From the NCBI GenBank assembly GCA_017509895.1, contig JAFWOH010000003.1:1-32536 (forward strand): DNA of 32,536 nt. The letters are read 5' to 3'. How positions within the stretch are numbered: position 1 is the first letter of the stretch; each line of letters starts with the position of its first letter. The notes beneath the pieces were generated by a model, which saw only the letters and a program-made list of their open reading frames with translations, did not search any database and had not been told where the DNA came from. Shown here piece after piece: positions 3,725 to 32,536 of this stretch. The stretch comes from Candidatus Saccharimonadota bacterium (GTDB lineage: Bacteria > Patescibacteriota > Saccharimonadia > Saccharimonadales > Saccharimonadaceae). The position numbers and the translations under genes are program-made.

Positions 3725-6202
3725 TTAAGCGACGATGTTTAAGAGTTTGGCACGCTCGACATAGATGGTCTTTTTAGGAGTACTTTTCACGAATTTTTGG
3801 ACGTTTTCATCTTCTAGAGCCTTGCTCTCGACGGCGGCTTGGTTTTTGGCACCTTCGGCACTGATTTTGATTTTAGCGCGAAGTTTGCCATTGACCTGAA
3901 CGACAATCTCGATTTCATCTTCTATTAATGCGGCCTCGTCCCAAGTTGGCCAGACATCATCCGCCCCTAGAGATTCAAGCATCTCGGCGGAAAGATGGGG
4001 AGCGAAGGGGCCAAGGAGCTTGGCAAGGGCAATGACGTCCTCTTTTTCGGGTCCGGCCTTGTAGAGCTCGTTGACATATTCCATGAGGGCGGCGACAGCG
4101 GTGTTAAAGCTCCTTCTATGCAAATCCTGTGTGACGCGCTTAATCGTTTTATTTCTAATTAAATTATTATCATTTTTACTAAAATTATTATTAAAACAGA
4201 GGGTCCAGCAGCGGCTGAGGAAGCGATAGACGCCGCCGATGCTATTAGTGTCCCAAGAAGCATCCTGATCGTAAGGGCCGATGAACATTTCGTAGGTGCG
4301 GAGGGTATCGGCGCCATAGCCGGAATTGATAACATCAAGAGGATCGATGACATTGCCCTTGCTCTTGCTCATTTTGCGACCATCTGGGGCATTGATGTAG
4401 CCATTATAAAGCAAAGTTTTTACCGGCTCGCGGAAGGGGAGATAGCCCTCGTCGGCAAAGAATTTGCACCAAAAACGGATGTAAAGTAGATGGGCGACGG
4501 CATGGTCTGCGCCGACATAGATGTCGGTCGGGGCCCAATATTTAATTGCATCTTTATTCCAAGCACTTTGATTATCATGAGGTGAAACATAACGCCAGAG
4601 ATACCAAGAAGAACAGGCATAGCCGTCCAAGGTATCGGTCTCGCGGGTCATTTCCTCTCCGTCAATAGTGACCTTTAGCCAATCCTTGGCTTTGGCAAGA
4701 GCGGAGCGGCCGGAATTATCGGGTTTATAATCTTCTACCTCTGGGATTAAGACCGGGAGCTGATCCTCTGGGATAGGATGAGGGTCACCATTTTTATCAT
4801 AGGCAATCGGAATCGGGCAGCCCCAATAGCGCTGGCGAGAGATTAGCCAGTCGCGCATTTTATAAGTCACTTTGCCCTTACCGATTCCCTGTTCTTCGAG
4901 CCAAGCAACGATTTGCTCGCGGGCATCAGAAGCATCGCGACCATTGAATTCGCCGGAATTGACGAGTTTACCCTCGCCGCCATAACATTCACTGTCGTCA
5001 TCTGAGTTTTCAGGTTTTTCGATAACAGTTTTAATGGGCAGGTCAAATTTTTTGGCGAACTCATAATCTCGCTCGTCGTGAGCAGGGACAGCCATAATGG
5101 CACCTTCGCCGTAGCCAATCAAAACATAGTCGGCGATCCAAATCGGGATTTTTTCGCCGGTGGCGGGGTTAATTGCATAAGAACCCGTAAAGACACCGGT
5201 TTTTTCCTTGTTTTCTTGTCTTTCGATGTCGGATTTCTTTTGAGTTTCCTTAATATAGGCCTCGACCTTTTCGCGGGTTTCATCGGTGACGAGCGAGGCG
5301 ACCAGAGGGTGTTCGGGGGCCAAAACTAGGAAAGTCGCGCCAAACAATGTGTCTGGCCTAGTTGTAAAGACACATATCTGGGACTCTTCTTCGGAAGAAG
5401 AGTCCCAACGAGAAGAACCTAGTTCGGCAGAAAAGTCACGCACATGTCGCGACTTTTCTGCTGTATCTGAAAAGATGATTTGGAATCTGATTTCAGCGCC
5501 CTCGGAGCGGCCAATCCAATTCTTCTGCATGACCTTAATTTTCTCGGGCCAATCGAGAGAGCTGAGGTCATCTAATAACTCATCAGCATAATCGGTGATT
5601 TTGAAGAACCATTGTTTCATCTTTTTCTTTTCGACTTCATGGCCACAGCGCCAGCATTTACCGCCTTCAACCTGCTCGTTGGCGAGGACGGTCTGATCAA
5701 CCGGACACCACCATTGTTCGGACTCTTTACGATAGGCAAGACCTTTTTTATAAAGCTGGAGGAAGCACCACTGAGTCCAGCGGTAATACTCTGGGTCAGA
5801 GGTGTTAATTTCGCGGGACCAATCAATGGCGAGGCCTAGGCGTTTAGCCTGTTTTCTGAAATTATCAATGTTGGTCTTTGTAGCCTCTTTCGGGGAAATG
5901 CCGGTCTTGATGGCATAATTTTCAGCCGGAAGGCCAAAGGTATCATAGCCAAAAGGACGGAGGACATTCATTTCCTGTTGGCGATAAAAGCGAGCAAGGA
6001 CATCAACGATGGTAAAATTGCGAACATGACCGACATGGAGACCGGCGCCAGAGGGATAAGGAAACATCTCCGCTAGATACATCTTTGCCCGGGGGCGGCC
6101 ATCTGCCGTCTTTAGATTATCTTCGCTGGCCTTAAAAGCCTGCTCCTTTTCCCAGATTTTTTGCCATTTTTCTTCAATTTTAATTGGGTCATATTTGTCC
6201 AT
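3725..6202 (-). CDS. leuS: leucyl-tRNA synthetase with an in-frame palindromic insertion
   Basis: This class I enzyme charges tRNA-Leu. The HIGH motif appears as HVGH (residues 56-59) after PYPSGAG. Zinc-type cysteines C166, C183 and C186 follow. The CP1 editing domain carries TTRPDTLFGATF (about 280-291), and KMSKS lies near residue 610. The total of 825 residues is in the usual range. Between the first editing-domain strand (GRSEGAEIRFQI) and ICVFTTRPDT there are about 30 extra residues (about 245-275), rich in Ser, Glu and Arg. They coincide exactly with a two-hairpin DNA element at 5379-5464 that also occurs in non-coding DNA in this window. GAGGA precedes the ATG, and an extended -10 lies at 6231-6236. 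Confidence 0.97.
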   Translation of the reverse strand: MDKYDPIKIEEKWQKIWEKEQAFKASEDNLKTADGRPRAKMYLAEMFPYPSGAGLHVGHVRNFTIVDVLARFYRQQEMNVLRPFGYDTFGLPAENYAIKTGISPKEATKTNIDNFRKQAKRLGLAIDWSREINTSDPEYYRWTQWCFLQLYKKGLAYRKESEQWWCPVDQTVLANEQVEGGKCWRCGHEVEKKKMKQWFFKITDYADELLDDLSSLDWPEKIKVMQKNWIGRSEGAEIRFQIIFSDTAEKSRHVRDFSAELGSSRWDSSSEEESQICVFTTRPDTLFGATFLVLAPEHPLVASLVTDETREKVEAYIKETQKKSDIERQENKEKTGVFTGSYAINPATGEKIPIWIADYVLIGYGEGAIMAVPAHDERDYEFAKKFDLPIKTVIEKPENSDDDSECYGGEGKLVNSGEFNGRDASDAREQIVAWLEEQGIGKGKVTYKMRDWLISRQRYWGCPIPIAYDKNGDPHPIPEDQLPVLIPEVEDYKPDNSGRSALAKAKDWLKVTIDGEEMTRETDTLDGYACSSWYLWRYVSPHDNQSAWNKDAIKYWAPTDIYVGADHAVAHLLYIRFWCKFFADEGYLPFREPVKTLLYNGYINAPDGRKMSKSKGNVIDPLDVINSGYGADTLRTYEMFIGPYDQDASWDTNSIGGVYRFLSRCWTLCFNNNFSKNDNNLIRNKTIKRVTQDLHRRSFNTAVAALMEYVNELYKAGPEKEDVIALAKLLGPFAPHLSAEMLESLGADDVWPTWDEAALIEDEIEIVVQVNGKLRAKIKISAEGAKNQAAVESKALEDENVQKFVKSTPKKTIYVERAKLLNIVA
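5379..5464. repeat. two-hairpin palindromic element, copy A (inside leuS)
   Basis: Hairpin 1 has 14-bp arms TGGGACTCTTCTTC (5379-5392) and its complement (5394-5407). The linker AACGAGAAGAACCTAGT follows. Hairpin 2 has 11-bp arms GCAGAAAAGTC (5427-5437) and its complement (5451-5461), plus an inner CG/CG pair and the 7-nt loop CACATGT (5441-5447). The linker and loop match the copies at 10104-10183 and 17831-17914, while the stems differ. It is open in the leuS frame and encodes the extra segment of the editing domain. Confidence 0.85.
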
Positions 6203-6251: not shown

Positions 6252-9200
6252 TTATGCCACTTTCACAGCCTCTTCACCGAGAAGGGCCTTGAGTGGCTTT
6301 AGTAGCTCATCATCAATTTCGACCCTAAATGGCATGCGGAGTGGCTTCTTCTCGCCGTTTCGGTCTAGGACGAGGATGATTTCTTCTAGGCCCGGCTGGG
6401 CATCGCAAAGCTGTTTGATATTATTTAGTAGTTCCGTATTGTCAGGCTCTTTGATAAGGCACCAGAGGCGTTTTTTAGGAGCGGGCTTCCCGGCCGGAGT
6501 GGGAGTAGGCTCAGCGACCGAAGATGAGCCAGAAGAAACAGACGCGCTAGGGCTTTTCCGAATAGTCTCGGAAGAGGTCTTTCCCCTAAAATTACCCCGG
6601 GACGGAGCCGCCTTCGGCGCGGGGAGCTTCTCGCCGGTCGGCTGGTAATTATCAAGCACCTCATCTGAAATTACTTCAATAGATTCGGCGAGAACCTTGA
6701 TGTCCGTCGTGGGGCGACCATCCTTATCAGAGGCGTTAACCCGGCCGGTGCATTTTATTACATTATCTAAAACGAGCTTTCCGCCAAATTCTTCATAAAT
6801 CCTTGGAAAGACCACGATTTCTTGCTCGCCATTTTTATCTTCGAGCTTCACAAACGCCATCTTCTGACCAGATTTAGTTAAGATAGTGCGGATATTAGTG
6901 ATAATCCCCCCGATGGAAATAATTTTATTGTCATATTCCTGACTAACCATGGAGAACGGATGACACTGCTCCTCAAAGAAAGTGTCATACTTATCGAGCG
7001 GATGAGCGGAGAGATAAAGACCCATGAGGTCGCGTTCCCAAAAGAGCTGTTCCTTTTCGCTAGTTTGGACGGGAGAGGGCTTGATTTCTGGCTCTGGGAT
7101 TACGCCTTCTCCGCCAAAGGCGGCAAAGAGGTCTACGCGCCCCTCTGCCCGGTCTTTCTGGACCTTGGCGGCATAACCTTGGATGGCCTCGAGATTAAAA
7201 AGTAAATCCGACCGAGTATTAAAGCGGTCGAAAGCACCGGTTTTAATAGCGGCTTCCCAAGAGCGCTTATTAAATTTTGTAGAATTTACTCTGGCGGCAA
7301 AATCACAGACGGACTTAAACTCCCCTCCTCGCTCTCTTTCGGGGATGACGATTTCCTCGACTAAGGCTTGGCCCATAGATTTAATGCCGGAGAGCCCAAA
7401 GCGGATAGTTTTTTCTCCTTTGACAATACCAAAATCGCTAAAAGATTGGTTAATATCTGGGCCGAGGACCTTTAGCCCCATGTGCTTACACTCGGCAATC
7501 TCAATCGCGAGGCGCTCCGTCCGGTTCATATCCGAGGTCATCAAAGCGGCCATAAAAGCATCTGGATAGTGCGCCTTTAGATAGGCTGTCCAATAGGCGA
7601 TCAAAGCATAACACGCGGCATGGGACTTATTAAAACAATAGTTCGCAAAATCGAGTAGCTGAGACCAAAAAGTCTCGGCAATTTCCTCGGTCGCACCACC
7701 AATCTCGACCGCACCCTTGATAAACTGTGGCTTTACCTCCTCCATCAATTTTACTTTCTTTTTACCGACTGCCTTTCTTAAAGTATCGGCCTGACCACCA
7801 GTAAATCCGCACCAAGAGCGAGAAATCTGCATGAACTGCTCTTGATAAATCAAAATACCATAAGTATCCTTCAGCGCACCTTCTAGACCGGGGTGGAGAT
7901 AGGTGATTTTTTCTTGGCCATGCTTGCGACGGATAAAGCTGTCAATAAACTGCATCGGGCCGGGACGATAGAGCGCAACCATCGCGATAATATCCTCAAA
8001 ACGAGAGGCCTTTAAATCTCTTAAGTAGCGCTTCATGCCGGCAGATTCTAGCTGGAAGACGCCGGTGGTCTCACCCCTCTGTAAAAGCGCGTAGGTTTCT
8101 GGGTCATCGAGCGGGAGCTGATACATATCAATATCTTCGCCATAAACCTTACGAATCATCCGAAGGGCATTATTAATCACAGTTAAGTTTGACAGGCCGA
8201 GGAAGTCCATTTTAAGTAGCCCGAGTTCCTCAATCTGGGTCATCGGGAATTGCGCCGCGAGTGTCTGCTCACCATTAGTCTGCTTACGAGAAACTTCTAG
8301 CGGGAGGAATTTGACGAGGTCGTCCGGGGCAATCACCACCCCACAGGCATGCACACCATGTGAACGAATCGTCCCCTCTAGGCGCATCGCAAAATCTATT
8401 ACCTCTTTAGCGGTAGGGTTATTTTCGTATTCATTTTTAAGGTCCGGATTTTCCTTGATAGCATCTTTCAAGGGGACATGATGACCCATCACCGGGTCTG
8501 GGACGAGCTTTGCGATGCGGTCTGATTCAGCATAGGGGACTTCAAGGACGCGCGCGACATCCCGGACGGCCATTTTCCCCATCATCTTACCAAAGGTGAC
8601 AATATTAGAGACGCGGCCGCGGCCGTATTTCTCGGTACAATATTGAATCACCTCGTCTCGCCGAGTATCCTGAATATCGGTATCGATATCTGGCATAGAG
8701 ATACGGTCGGGATTTAAAAAGCGCTCAAAAAGCAAATCGTATTTTAGCGGGTCAAGCTCTGTAATTCTAAGAGCGTAGGCGAGGAGAGAGCCAGCGGCAG
8801 AGCCACGACCCGGCCCATAGACAATCCCTTTTTTCTTGCCCCAGTTAATAAAATCTTGGACAATCAAGAAATAGCCGTTATAATTCATCTTATCGACGAC
8901 CGAGAGCTCATAATCAATCCGCTCGAGCTGCTCCTTAGAGAGGAGCTTTCGGCATTCCTCGACAGTCAGTTTCTCGGCCTCCTCCTCGGTCTTTCCGCCA
9001 TAGCGAAAGGCGAGACCCCGAAAGACTAATTGGTCTAGATATTGTTTTTCGTTTAAACCATCGGGGATGCCCGGGAATTTTGGAATTAAAATCCGCCCGA
9101 GCTGAAGGTCGACATTACATCTCTCGGCAATCCGCTTAGTATTTCTAATCGCCTCTGGAAAATCCTTGCTCCAACGGTCAATAATCTCCTTTGGCGGGAT

Positions 9201-29428: not shown

Positions 29429-32400
29429 CTACTTAGCTATGCAGCGTACAGCGTACCCGCTGAACTTGTAGTCGTTGCTCTGGGGGCGGACATACGACGA
29501 ATTGAAGTATAGGTAGTAACCGCGGTCGGTACCGTATACTGAGGAGGACCAGTAGAACCCGGCGGAACCAACGCCGCTCGCGCTAGTATCCTTACCACTC
29601 CAGACGCCTGCGTAAGAGAAACCGGCATAGCTGTTTCCGTTTGCGGCTGCTCCGGTGTGGATGCCGGTAAGAGCCGTACTATTTTTCGTATTATAATCAT
29701 AGTTCGTAGCCGTACCACTCCAGTTAGCGGTACTATATTGGCGAGTAAGATAAGTAAAGTCGTTTGCAGAAGTGATTACGGAAACGGTCGTGCCGGCATC
29801 AGTGGTTTTTGGTAATCTCCATCCTTTCGGACAGATGTCTCTTGTGGAGGAGCCTTGAGATATACCAGCTCCACTACCGCTTGTCTGATAGTATGAATAG
29901 CCTAAAGTAGCAGTATAGAAGTTATAATAACCAGTATCGGAGTCGTTGGTAATGCTAGAGTCCTTTGTCCTAAATTGAGTCTTGGCTTGGTTATCGTCGC
30001 TCGTACTAAAGTTTGCTGCAGTATTACTTGTCAAGGTGGAGCTACTGGTGATGTCTCCTTGCATGCCAGCTGGGGGGAGGTAATAGGTGGTATTGTTGTC
30101 GATGTTGGTATCTGCCGAGGTTAGGGTTTTTGCGCCGTCTGAGCCAATAGTCAGATTCTGTGTCATCCAGACCTTCCCATCCGGCAGTTTCTTGACCGTG
30201 TATTCTTTGCCGTCTCTTGCGTCTATTAGGGTCTTAGAGTCCCCGACGCTCGTGAGCTCGCTGGACTGGAATTCCTGCATGGTCTCTTTAGCTATGCAGC
30301 GTACAGCGACCCCGAAGTACTTGCCTTGGTTGAACTGGGGGTACACACCCGACGAATCGAAGTATAGGAGGTAACCGTAGTAGGTACTGTATACCGAGGA
30401 GGACCAGTAGCGCCCGTCGGAACCAACATTGCTTGCGCTAGTATTCGTACCATCCCAGAGGCCTGAGTAAGAGAAACCGGCATAGTTGTTTCCATTTGCA
30501 GCTACACTCGTATACATCGGGCCTTTTACTGCGTTAGTATTATTATAATAACCAGAGCCACTAGTACCCGTCGCCGAACCGCTCCAACCACTAGTACTAT
30601 ACTGACGGGCTAGATAGGTAAAGTCGTTTGCGGAGCCTGTAGTCGTAACATTTGTACCGCTATCTGTAGTCTTTGGCAGTCTCCAGCCAGATGGGCAAAT
30701 GTCACGAGTGGAGGAACCTTGGGATACACCAGCTCCGCTACCACTTGTTTGATAATATGAGTAGCCTAGCGTAGCAGTATAGAAGTTATAATAGCCAGTA
30801 TCGCTGTCGTTAATGATGCTACTGTTTTTTGTTCTAAATTGAGTCTTGGCTTGGTTGTCATTGCTCGTGCCAAAGTTTGCTGCAGTATTACTTGTCAAGG
30901 TGGAGCTGCTGGTGATGCTGCCTTGTTTGCCGGCGGGCGGGAGGTAGTAGGTGGTGTTGTTGTCGATATTGGTATTGGCGCTGGTGAGGGTGCGTTGGGC
31001 GGCGGTGGAGTTACTATCGCCGAGAGTTAGATTCTGGACCATCCAGCATTTACCATCGGGGAGTTTCTTCACGGCATAGACTTTATTGTCCCGGGTATCA
31101 CGGAGTTTTACCTCTTGCCCTTCAGAGAGAGCGGCACAGCTAGTCCAAGTTTGCATATCGCCATCGGGAGCTTTTTCCCAAACGGCATAAAGGGTGATGG
31201 TGCTGCCGGAGGCGGGGGAGCCGGCGGCGGAGATGAGGGTTTGGACATCTATGGACGAATTAGCGGCGTAGGTGGCCGAGGTGGCATTTTTATCAAGGCT
31301 CCAGCCGAGGAAGTTATAGCCTTCTCTTGCTAGCGTCCCCTGCCCTGCCGTAGTAATCTCACCGGTTTCATAAATACTATCACTCGCCTTGCTCGCCACC
31401 CCGGTGCCACCATTAGCATTATAGCTCACCGTATAATTATTCTGCGCCACACAACGCGTAGCAAATCCATAGTATTTGCTAGTGCTGAGTTGCGGATAGA
31501 CATTGCCATTCGAGTCCAAGTACAATTGATAACCGTTGTAAGCGGTACTGATAGTAGAAGACCACCAAGCACCATTTGAATTAACACCGTGTAGCTGAAA
31601 ATCTTGGTAGTATCCAGAGTACAAGAATGAGGCATTGTTAATCATATTTGAAAGAGAGCCACCGTTCAAAGTGTCGTAGAAGTACTGCCAAGATTTCGAG
31701 CCAGCATCACTAGTTGGCATTCGCCAACCCTTTGGGCAAATGTCTCTTGTTGAAGTGCCAGAGGACTTGCCATCGTTGAAATATGAAAAGCCAAGAGTAA
31801 CTGCGTAGAAGCTATAATAGCCTGTACTTTGCTCGAGGGTGCCAGAGCTACCTACATCACCACTTGAACCTTGGGCGCGATATTGGACATGAGCTTGATT
31901 TAATCTGGTATTACCGTCAAAAGTTGCTGAGCCAGTCGTAGAAGGACTATTTAAAGCTCCACTGTAACCCGCTTGCGGAAGATAATAAGTACCGTTATCA
32001 CTAAGCGTCCCGTCATCATTGTTTGGAATATTAGTAAGTTCAGAGGTTAAGGCGTAGCCTTTGTCATAACCAAGAATAAGATTATCGGTCATCCAACATT
32101 CATCACCGAACTTCTTGACATTATAAATGGTGCCGTCTCTTAAGTCTTTAAGTTTTACTGTATCTCCAGAGTTTAAGGAAGAACATCCTGTCCATGTCTG
32201 CATATCACCATCTGCGGTAACTTCCCAAATAGCATAAAGAGTCTTAGTAGTATTAAAGCCTGATATGTCAGTAACGGAGGCTTCATCTTCATAGTCTACA
32301 TCATCTACTGTTCCGATACCATCTACTGCAGTACCTGTCTTACCATCTGCGGTATTAGACCAACCAAGGAAGGTATAGCCTTCTCGCGTGAAAGCGTTTT

Positions 32401-32536
32401 CACTTAGAGTAGTAGCTTGTCCTACATTAATAGTCTGGTTATCCATTTCTCCTGTACCACCATTAGCATTATAGACGATAGTATAGGTAGAACAACTAGG
32501 ATTAGATAGGACAGTATATAGGACATCTCCAGAATA
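29429..32536 (-). CDS. large FISUMP / InlB-repeat surface protein, 5'-partial
   Basis: The frame is open to the right edge, so only the last 1035 residues are visible. An internal Met at 32446 is not the real start, because the sequence before it (TIVYNANGGTGE) is already part of a repeat. Order seen: an InlB B-type repeat (YNANGGTG ... REGYTFLGWS ... LYAIWE), FISUMP domain 1 (about 32215-31437), a second InlB repeat (YNANGGTG ... LYAVWE), FISUMP domain 2 (about 31160-30288) and FISUMP domain 3 (to the stop). FISUMP units carry RDGK.Y.VKKL.DG..WM.QNL, DICP.GWRLP and the end WSSS..GY.LYF ... VRCIA. Cell-surface adhesion is expected from the family. Domains 2 and 3 end in DGR-like variable regions. 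No LPXTG anchor is seen at the C-terminus. Confidence 0.88.
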   Translation of the reverse strand, partial: YSGDVLYTVLSNPSCSTYTIVYNANGGTGEMDNQTINVGQATTLSENAFTREGYTFLGWSNTADGKTGTAVDGIGTVDDVDYEDEASVTDISGFNTTKTLYAIWEVTADGDMQTWTGCSSLNSGDTVKLKDLRDGTIYNVKKFGDECWMTDNLILGYDKGYALTSELTNIPNNDDGTLSDNGTYYLPQAGYSGALNSPSTTGSATFDGNTRLNQAHVQYRAQGSSGDVGSSGTLEQSTGYYSFYAVTLGFSYFNDGKSSGTSTRDICPKGWRMPTSDAGSKSWQYFYDTLNGGSLSNMINNASFLYSGYYQDFQLHGVNSNGAWWSSTISTAYNGYQLYLDSNGNVYPQLSTSKYYGFATRCVAQNNYTVSYNANGGTGVASKASDSIYETGEITTAGQGTLAREGYNFLGWSLDKNATSATYAANSSIDVQTLISAAGSPASGSTITLYAVWEKAPDGDMQTWTSCAALSEGQEVKLRDTRDNKVYAVKKLPDGKCWMVQNLTLGDSNSTAAQRTLTSANTNIDNNTTYYLPPAGKQGSITSSSTLTSNTAANFGTSNDNQAKTQFRTKNSSIINDSDTGYYNFYTATLGYSYYQTSGSGAGVSQGSSTRDICPSGWRLPKTTDSGTNVTTTGSANDFTYLARQYSTSGWSGSATGTSGSGYYNNTNAVKGPMYTSVAANGNNYAGFSYSGLWDGTNTSASNVGSDGRYWSSSVYSTYYGYLLYFDSSGVYPQFNQGKYFGVAVRCIAKETMQEFQSSELTSVGDSKTLIDARDGKEYTVKKLPDGKVWMTQNLTIGSDGAKTLTSADTNIDNNTTYYLPPAGMQGDITSSSTLTSNTAANFSTSDDNQAKTQFRTKDSSITNDSDTGYYNFYTATLGYSYYQTSGSGAGISQGSSTRDICPKGWRLPKTTDAGTTVSVITSANDFTYLTRQYSTANWSGTATNYDYNTKNSTALTGIHTGAAANGNSYAGFSYAGVWSGKDTSASGVGSAGFYWSSSVYGTDRGYYLYFNSSYVRPQSNDYKFSGYAVRCIAK
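29432..29629 (-). other. candidate DGR variable region (FISUMP domain 3)
   Basis: These 66 codons align without gaps to 30287-30484. By hand I count 25 differing codons and 38 differing bases, 32 of them at codon positions 1 or 2. Examples of paired codons are TTC/CGC, AGC/TTC, CGC/TAC, TAC/CTC and TAC/GGC; all fit mutation of AAC or AAT template codons. The intervening codons, including their third bases, are nearly all identical. Confidence 0.7.
30287..30484 (-). other. candidate DGR variable region (FISUMP domain 2)
   Basis: This is the partner of 29432-29629. The four purely silent differences between the two (AAG/AAA, TCA/TCG, GCG/GCA, GTC/GTG) can all be explained by an adenine at that place in a shared template. 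Upstream of this segment the two domains differ by many ordinary synonymous changes; for example, six of fourteen codons in the NIDNNTTYYLPPAG stretch differ silently. Confidence 0.7.

Follow-up and report, generated by a model that had tools for sequence, protein, structure and literature searches.

The window, the whole 32,536-nucleotide stretch that was analysed and that constitutes contig C16 of its genome assembly (723,673 bp, 41 contigs, estimated completeness 92%), codes for a FISUMP surface-type protein that, with a probability of about 0.93 as judged from sequence comparison, holds two variable regions of a diversity-generating retroelement (DGR) in one polypeptide, at the ends of domains 2 and 3. 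In the proposed mechanism, a template repeat would be transcribed, a DGR reverse transcriptase and an Avd-type partner would copy the template RNA with errors opposite the template adenines, and the cDNA would replace the window variable regions, one internal and one C-terminal; this replacement would take place in trans, because no reverse transcriptase lies nearby. The bacterium would have, or would recently have had, several cassettes (families A to D), of which A is assembled on contig C19 and B is missing from the assembly. Enzyme and template RNA probably act today, cassette B presumably still exists in this strain, and the FISUMP domains may bind variable surface ligands. The features of the window are the following:

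29429-32536, minus strand: gene of the FISUMP surface-type protein, incomplete at the contig end, with 1035 visible codons and the first ATG at 32446
31436-32197, minus strand: FISUMP domain 1
31436-31651, minus strand: end of domain 1, a decayed family-D variable region with ordinary changes
30287-31165, minus strand: FISUMP domain 2, from the profile match and the codon alignment
30287-30475, minus strand: family-B variable region of domain 2, internal, as domain 3 follows in frame
29432-30253, minus strand: FISUMP domain 3, from the profile match and the codon alignment
29432-29620, minus strand: family-B variable region of domain 3, C-terminal, differing from domain 2 and from further family-B copies at positions where the sister-species template has an adenine

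The protein matches TIGR02145 (E=2e-41) in three stretches and also carries List_Bact repeats (PF09479); its N-terminus is not seen because the gene runs off the contig end. The AlphaFold model of FISUMP domain 3 is only moderate (pLDDT 68). It was examined for a fold of the C-type-lectin kind: a Foldseek search with this model gave no match below E=1, and its comparison with the C-terminal domain of Legionella Lcl (8q4e) gave a VIA-align Z of 6.1. In an incomplete coverage of the literature, no paper was found that joins FISUMP domains and retroelements.

On codon re-alignment, the last 66 codons of domains 2 (ending at 30287) and 3 (ending at 29432) align without gaps and differ in 25 codons, exactly as the sequence-only reading had described them. 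Both of the first two bases are changed in 11 codons, 10 of which retain the third base, the ten codons of that earlier count. The reported preference for the first two codon positions is a real skew, with 18, 14 and 6 differences at positions 1, 2 and 3, although the accompanying statement that third positions are otherwise fixed was too strong, because six of them differ (GCG/GCA, GGC/AAT, TCA/TCG, GTC/GTG, GAC/CAA, AAG/AAA); an adenine of the template at the site would account for several of these six. The contrast with the upstream part is nonetheless real: the 206 aligned upstream codons differ 45, 37 and 95 times at the three positions (Fisher p=2.3e-5 against the last 66 codons), and the ordinary silent change that had been reported there is found again, with 62 of 156 same-residue codon pairs differing silently, against 4 of 45 in the last 66 codons.

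The DGR-type reverse transcriptase that the sequence-only reading expected elsewhere in the genome is present on contig C19, where it belongs to an assembled cassette of family A:

C19:6204-6389, opposite the strand of the reverse transcriptase and at its 3' end: family-A template, about 185 bp, an A-rich copy of a FISUMP domain end (...NNNNKRNGFAVRCIAD)
C19:6530-7774, minus strand: DGR reverse transcriptase, the only reverse transcriptase found in the genome
C19:7725-8669: accessory open reading frame of 314 aa, between the target and the reverse transcriptase

The enzyme contains the motifs YVDD and VIGNLTSQ, the latter of which matches the SQ motif described for such enzymes (PMC3521204), and YVDD together with VIGNLTSQ (or VIGNLSSQ) occurs in all 15 aligned relatives, in agreement with the DGR patterns Y.DD and (I/V/L)GxxxSQ. 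Its closest solved relative is the Bordetella DGR reverse transcriptase 8ub7 (E=6e-22). The names assigned by Pfam, NCBIfam and PADLOC (group II intron, DRT) scored below the curated cut-offs where these exist, and such an identity is outweighed by the DGR motif and the PDB match.

The family-A template explains six full-length variable regions (two on C39 and one each on C10, C22, C20 and C23), and one further variable region that matches it, truncated by the end of C19, lies beside the cassette on the strand of the reverse transcriptase. Each family-A variable region has 16-24 changes at template adenines and 0-7 elsewhere (P from 5e-5 to 2e-11), and in the C23 copy all 19 of 19 changes fall at a template A. 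Four of the six (both C39 copies, C10, C22) have an internal position in their polypeptides. At C19 and C23, where the copies are C-terminal, they include the 3' flank of the template with GGGCC-TCC-GGCCC, whereas the internal copies and those of the window have only the coding end in common with the template; downstream of the two window variable regions, unlike at the C19 and C23 copies, no GC-rich inverted repeat was seen. The surroundings of the cassette (locus L042) hold further elements: the stretch TCTACTTCTATTCCAGCCACGACCATTTTACTTT is present twice upstream of the template leader (at about 5670-5710 and 5898-5936), an inverted repeat AAAATACCGCC...GGCGGTATTTT lies between the template and the stop codon of the reverse transcriptase (about 6484-6525), and a RelB-like antitoxin gene (PF04221) with a small neighbour resembling a toxin partner adjoins the cassette (4848-5586). 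The inverted repeat could serve as a bidirectional transcription end; a terminator scan did not list it.

An A-rich template, the other element sought, thus lies beside the reverse transcriptase, but it is not that of the window, whose own template is missing from the assembly. Specifically, the C19 template was rejected as the source of the window variable regions since the constant sites differ, for example GCA GTT versus GCT GTA before CGCTGC. The window copies form a second family (B), other copies of which are found on C25 and C39 and, decayed, on C10; the C39 copy (locus L044, 3559-3744) has one extra codon in the variable loop. A template B was predicted from the family-B copies of this genome by writing A at the varying sites. 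Neither such a template nor a second reverse transcriptase was found in the 92% complete assembly; an 18-base match at C18:207-224 is attributed to chance, as it follows a GC-rich hairpin and has no upstream similarity. When 174 genomes of the genus were compared with the prediction, two sites matched it best (G074:C74:3536-3724 and G150:C4:125887-126069), at 89% identity, more than any copy in the window's own genome, and each lies in a sister species just 3' of a DGR reverse transcriptase, on the opposite strand. The G074 contig that carries the template also holds a variable region with 22 differences from it, all of them at A. In the window, domains 2 and 3 differ at 38 sites, 29 of which coincide with an A shared by both sister templates (such sites number 52 of 189; P=1.2e-12), a count that uses the letters of the sister templates, the prediction having served only to locate them; the other 9 fall at sites that are not A in both. 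The adenines of a sister-species template hence cover most of the pattern and support the DGR origin that the sequence-only reading had proposed for it.

One of these sister genomes, G150, contains three cassettes, each with a reverse transcriptase and a template, and these templates are the counterparts of families B, C and D in the window's genome. In the latter, some pairs of copies in families C and D have an excess of changes at template A (C28-C30b, P=5e-10; C10-C35, P=6e-11), and other copies are decayed. The decayed copies include the end of window domain 1, which has 82 mismatches to the sister-species family-D template, 26 of them at A, with no excess at A (P=0.3). The families are mixed within proteins: the C39 protein has variable regions A, A and B, the C10 protein D, A and a decayed B, and the window protein a decayed D followed by B and B. 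From these assignments, single polypeptides appear to hold variable regions of different cassettes, an arrangement for which no description was found in an incomplete coverage of the literature. Several FISUMP genes of this genome sit at contig ends, and cassettes could for this reason be missing from the assembly.

The accessory protein encoded between the target and the reverse transcriptase has relatives at about 60 loci, mostly with 20-30% identity. A sequence profile of it searched against the PDB returned only coiled and calmodulin-like noise, and its structural model is good (pLDDT 88). Residues 186-304 of the model superpose on Bordetella Avd (4dwl) with a Z of 13.2 and an rmsd of 2.0 over 109 residues, and on the protein 2gsc with a Z of 16.2; Avd structures as a group stand near the top of the match list, where high Z values are easily reached by helical bundles and a match tests the fold, not descent. 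As modelled, the Avd fold makes up the C-terminal half of this protein. Such a fusion, with a predicted Avd fold inside a larger protein, was not found described in the literature, as far as its incomplete coverage goes.

The C19 cassette does not have the prototypical order, with the template upstream of the reverse transcriptase on the same strand, and its relatives share this feature. Relatives of the reverse transcriptase are present in 57 of 99 genomes of the genus, and the same loci are found in named Saccharibacteria genomes, including Candidatus Nanosyncoccus alces, most of them from herbivore guts. Among the best 80 related loci, which were picked by similarity of the reverse transcriptase and are no census of the phylum, a template-target pair was detected in 67, and in 64 of these the template is 3' of the reverse transcriptase on the opposite strand; in viral control loci (80 DGR loci, same script), 62 of 64 are in the prototypical order. 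The best-matching target of the 64 inverted-template loci lies on the strand of the reverse transcriptase in 52 cases and on that of the template in 12. The cassette of the clade accordingly reads target, fused Avd-type protein and reverse transcriptase in one direction, with the template converging on them from the other. Two loci are rearranged. In L208 (CAMYWN010000046, 1790-4531), the inner part is apparently flipped, with the template on the plus strand 5' of the accessory gene and the reverse transcriptase, and a variable region on the minus strand 3' of the reverse transcriptase, in which 30 of 30 changes are at A; recombination could have produced the flip, template and target being inverted repeats around the reverse transcriptase, or it could be an assembly artefact. 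In L168 (285-2681), a match to the leader RNA described below and the reverse transcriptase are on the same strand and the accessory gene is convergent.

Upstream of the inverted templates, promoter-like sites and a structured leader are found. In template sense, 43 of 64 loci have a TATAAT in the 400 bp that precede the template; on the other strand 20 loci have one, and in first-order shuffles 10.5 on average (maximum 18); on C19 the promoter-like site is TTGACA-17-TAAAAT at 5810-5838, with 11 of 12 matches. The leader between these sites and the template contains a long-range helix (P1), the left arm of which is rich in purines, and a hairpin (P2) that P1 directly encloses. When 15 leaders are aligned with MAFFT, 96% of the P1 cells are paired and 6 of its 7 pairs show double changes. 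No shuffle and no slide reaches the covariation score of P1, although the seed counts taken alone lean towards P1, because the seed stretches were picked with P1 in view. A covariance model applied to loci outside the seed is the fairer test: in 605 kb of such loci it has 24 matches (E up to 1), 18 of which lie directly upstream of a template, on its strand and within about 215 bp, while 3 more lie on the expected side of a reverse transcriptase whose template was not called. The model has no match in 577 kb of viral DGR loci and finds only the C19 leader in the window's own genome, and an Rfam search at the leader gave nothing near a gathering score. Two matches that do not adjoin a called template (L183, 6272-6362, and L190, 2523-2608) are possibly further template genes and possibly chance. 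Some loci (e.g., L143, L137, L144) have a short pyrimidine-rich element, (C)CCCCAGC, after the template stop, a candidate spacer or priming element. In view of its inversion and of the promoter-like sites and structured leader that belong to it, the template is most likely an independent RNA gene, transcribed from the opposite strand to the reverse transcriptase. In the incomplete literature coverage, no description was found of what appears from the sequences to be a clade-wide inverted template with its own leader RNA.

The pattern of domains 2 and 3 could in principle have arisen by ordinary domain duplication, after which gene conversion would have homogenised the last 200 bp and positive selection would have altered the binding residues; the domains are indeed tandem paralogues, and the variable residues could sit in a binding face. 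Selection, however, does not pick sites that are A in the template of another species (P=1e-12) and does not give 19 of 19 changes at template A as in the C23 copy, and silent change is normal in the upstream codons of these domains, so that this explanation, contradicted already by the template match, is highly improbable. A different question is whether cassette B wrote domains 2 and 3 and was then lost, leaving a fossil pattern with no diversification now, which is a variant of the best explanation as regards the present state and not the origin. The absence of template B and of a second reverse transcriptase from the assembly speaks for such a loss, as does the clear decay of older copies in this genome, where non-A differences amount to 19-24% in the C10 family-B copy and about 33% in window domain 1. 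Conversely, the non-A divergence between domains 2 and 3 is 7%, inside the 2-9% of the family-A copies, whose template is present; moreover, the assembly is 92% complete, several contigs end within such repeats, where assemblers fail, and the sister species have retained cassette B. A loss is on balance rather doubtful.

The single reverse transcriptase of C19 might also act in trans for more than one template, among them an unassembled template B that lacks a reverse transcriptase of its own. One such enzyme only was found in the genome and, if active, it must work in trans on six distant genes; against this sharing, G150 has a separate reverse transcriptase and template for each of families B, C and D, and the window's genome has one leader-RNA copy only, which makes it unlikely. 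The reading of the window as two DGR variable regions written in trans by a cassette B, present or recently lost, is preferred. Saccharibacteria have very small genomes, and many of them live attached to other bacteria. Tandem hypervariable domains that are kept in a 0.7-Mb genome and written in trans would point to a targeted diversification of surface contact. On a broader level, the cassettes probably represent a distinct Saccharibacteria-clade type of DGR, in which an independent template-RNA gene converges with the reverse transcriptase, a conserved three-way-junction leader 5' of the template replaces, or stands besides, a 3' spacer, and surface proteins of tandem variable domains answer to different cassettes, with separately tunable diversity.

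The DGR of the Bordetella phage BPP-1 (bRT, Avd, TR, spacer, and VR of mtd) has in common with these cassettes the DGR reverse transcriptase, the Avd fold, the A-specific changes from template to target and the rewriting of the end of the target domain. In contrast to BPP-1, the template here lies at the 3' end of the reverse transcriptase gene and on the other strand, a larger protein contains Avd as its C-terminal half, and the targets are remote, several and partly internal. The conserved RNA structure is here 5' of the template, whereas the known one of BPP-1 is the 3' spacer, the recruiting structure in Bordetella being located 3' of the template (PMC12875486); the inverted template with its covarying leader is thus a natural test of the RNA parts that a DGR needs, 5' here and 3' in Bordetella (PMC12875486). 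The group 4 "inverted" DGRs of Shewanella, Vibrio and Photobacterium (PMC3521204) likewise have the reverse transcriptase and the template on different strands, but in these the template, variable region and target are together opposite the reverse transcriptase, whereas here the template alone is inverted, the best variable region being on the strand of the reverse transcriptase in 52 of 64 loci.

Patescibacteria DGR clade 2 of Roux et al. 2021 (PMC8144416) comprises cellular DGRs of the same phylum group as the present ones; a term search of the main text of that survey found no mention of inverted or opposite-strand templates. Variable regions are near-universally C-terminal in the survey (PMC8144416), in contrast to the internal ones described here, which put to the test the idea that a C-terminal position is preferred since homing signals have to be intergenic (PMC8144416). 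Lastly, two targets in one polypeptide were rightly called unusual in the sequence-only reading, yet precedents exist (PMC3521204, PMC10907252): Marichromatium purpuratum has three tandem FGE domains in one ORF (PMC3521204), and DGR 4 of Thiohalocapsa PB-PSB1 has three VRs in one gene, with VRs served in trans (PMC10907252). Several variable regions per polypeptide and action in trans are common to these systems and the present one, which differs from them in its FISUMP domains and in single polypeptides that would answer to different templates (A, A and B in the C39 protein; D, A and B in the C10 protein).
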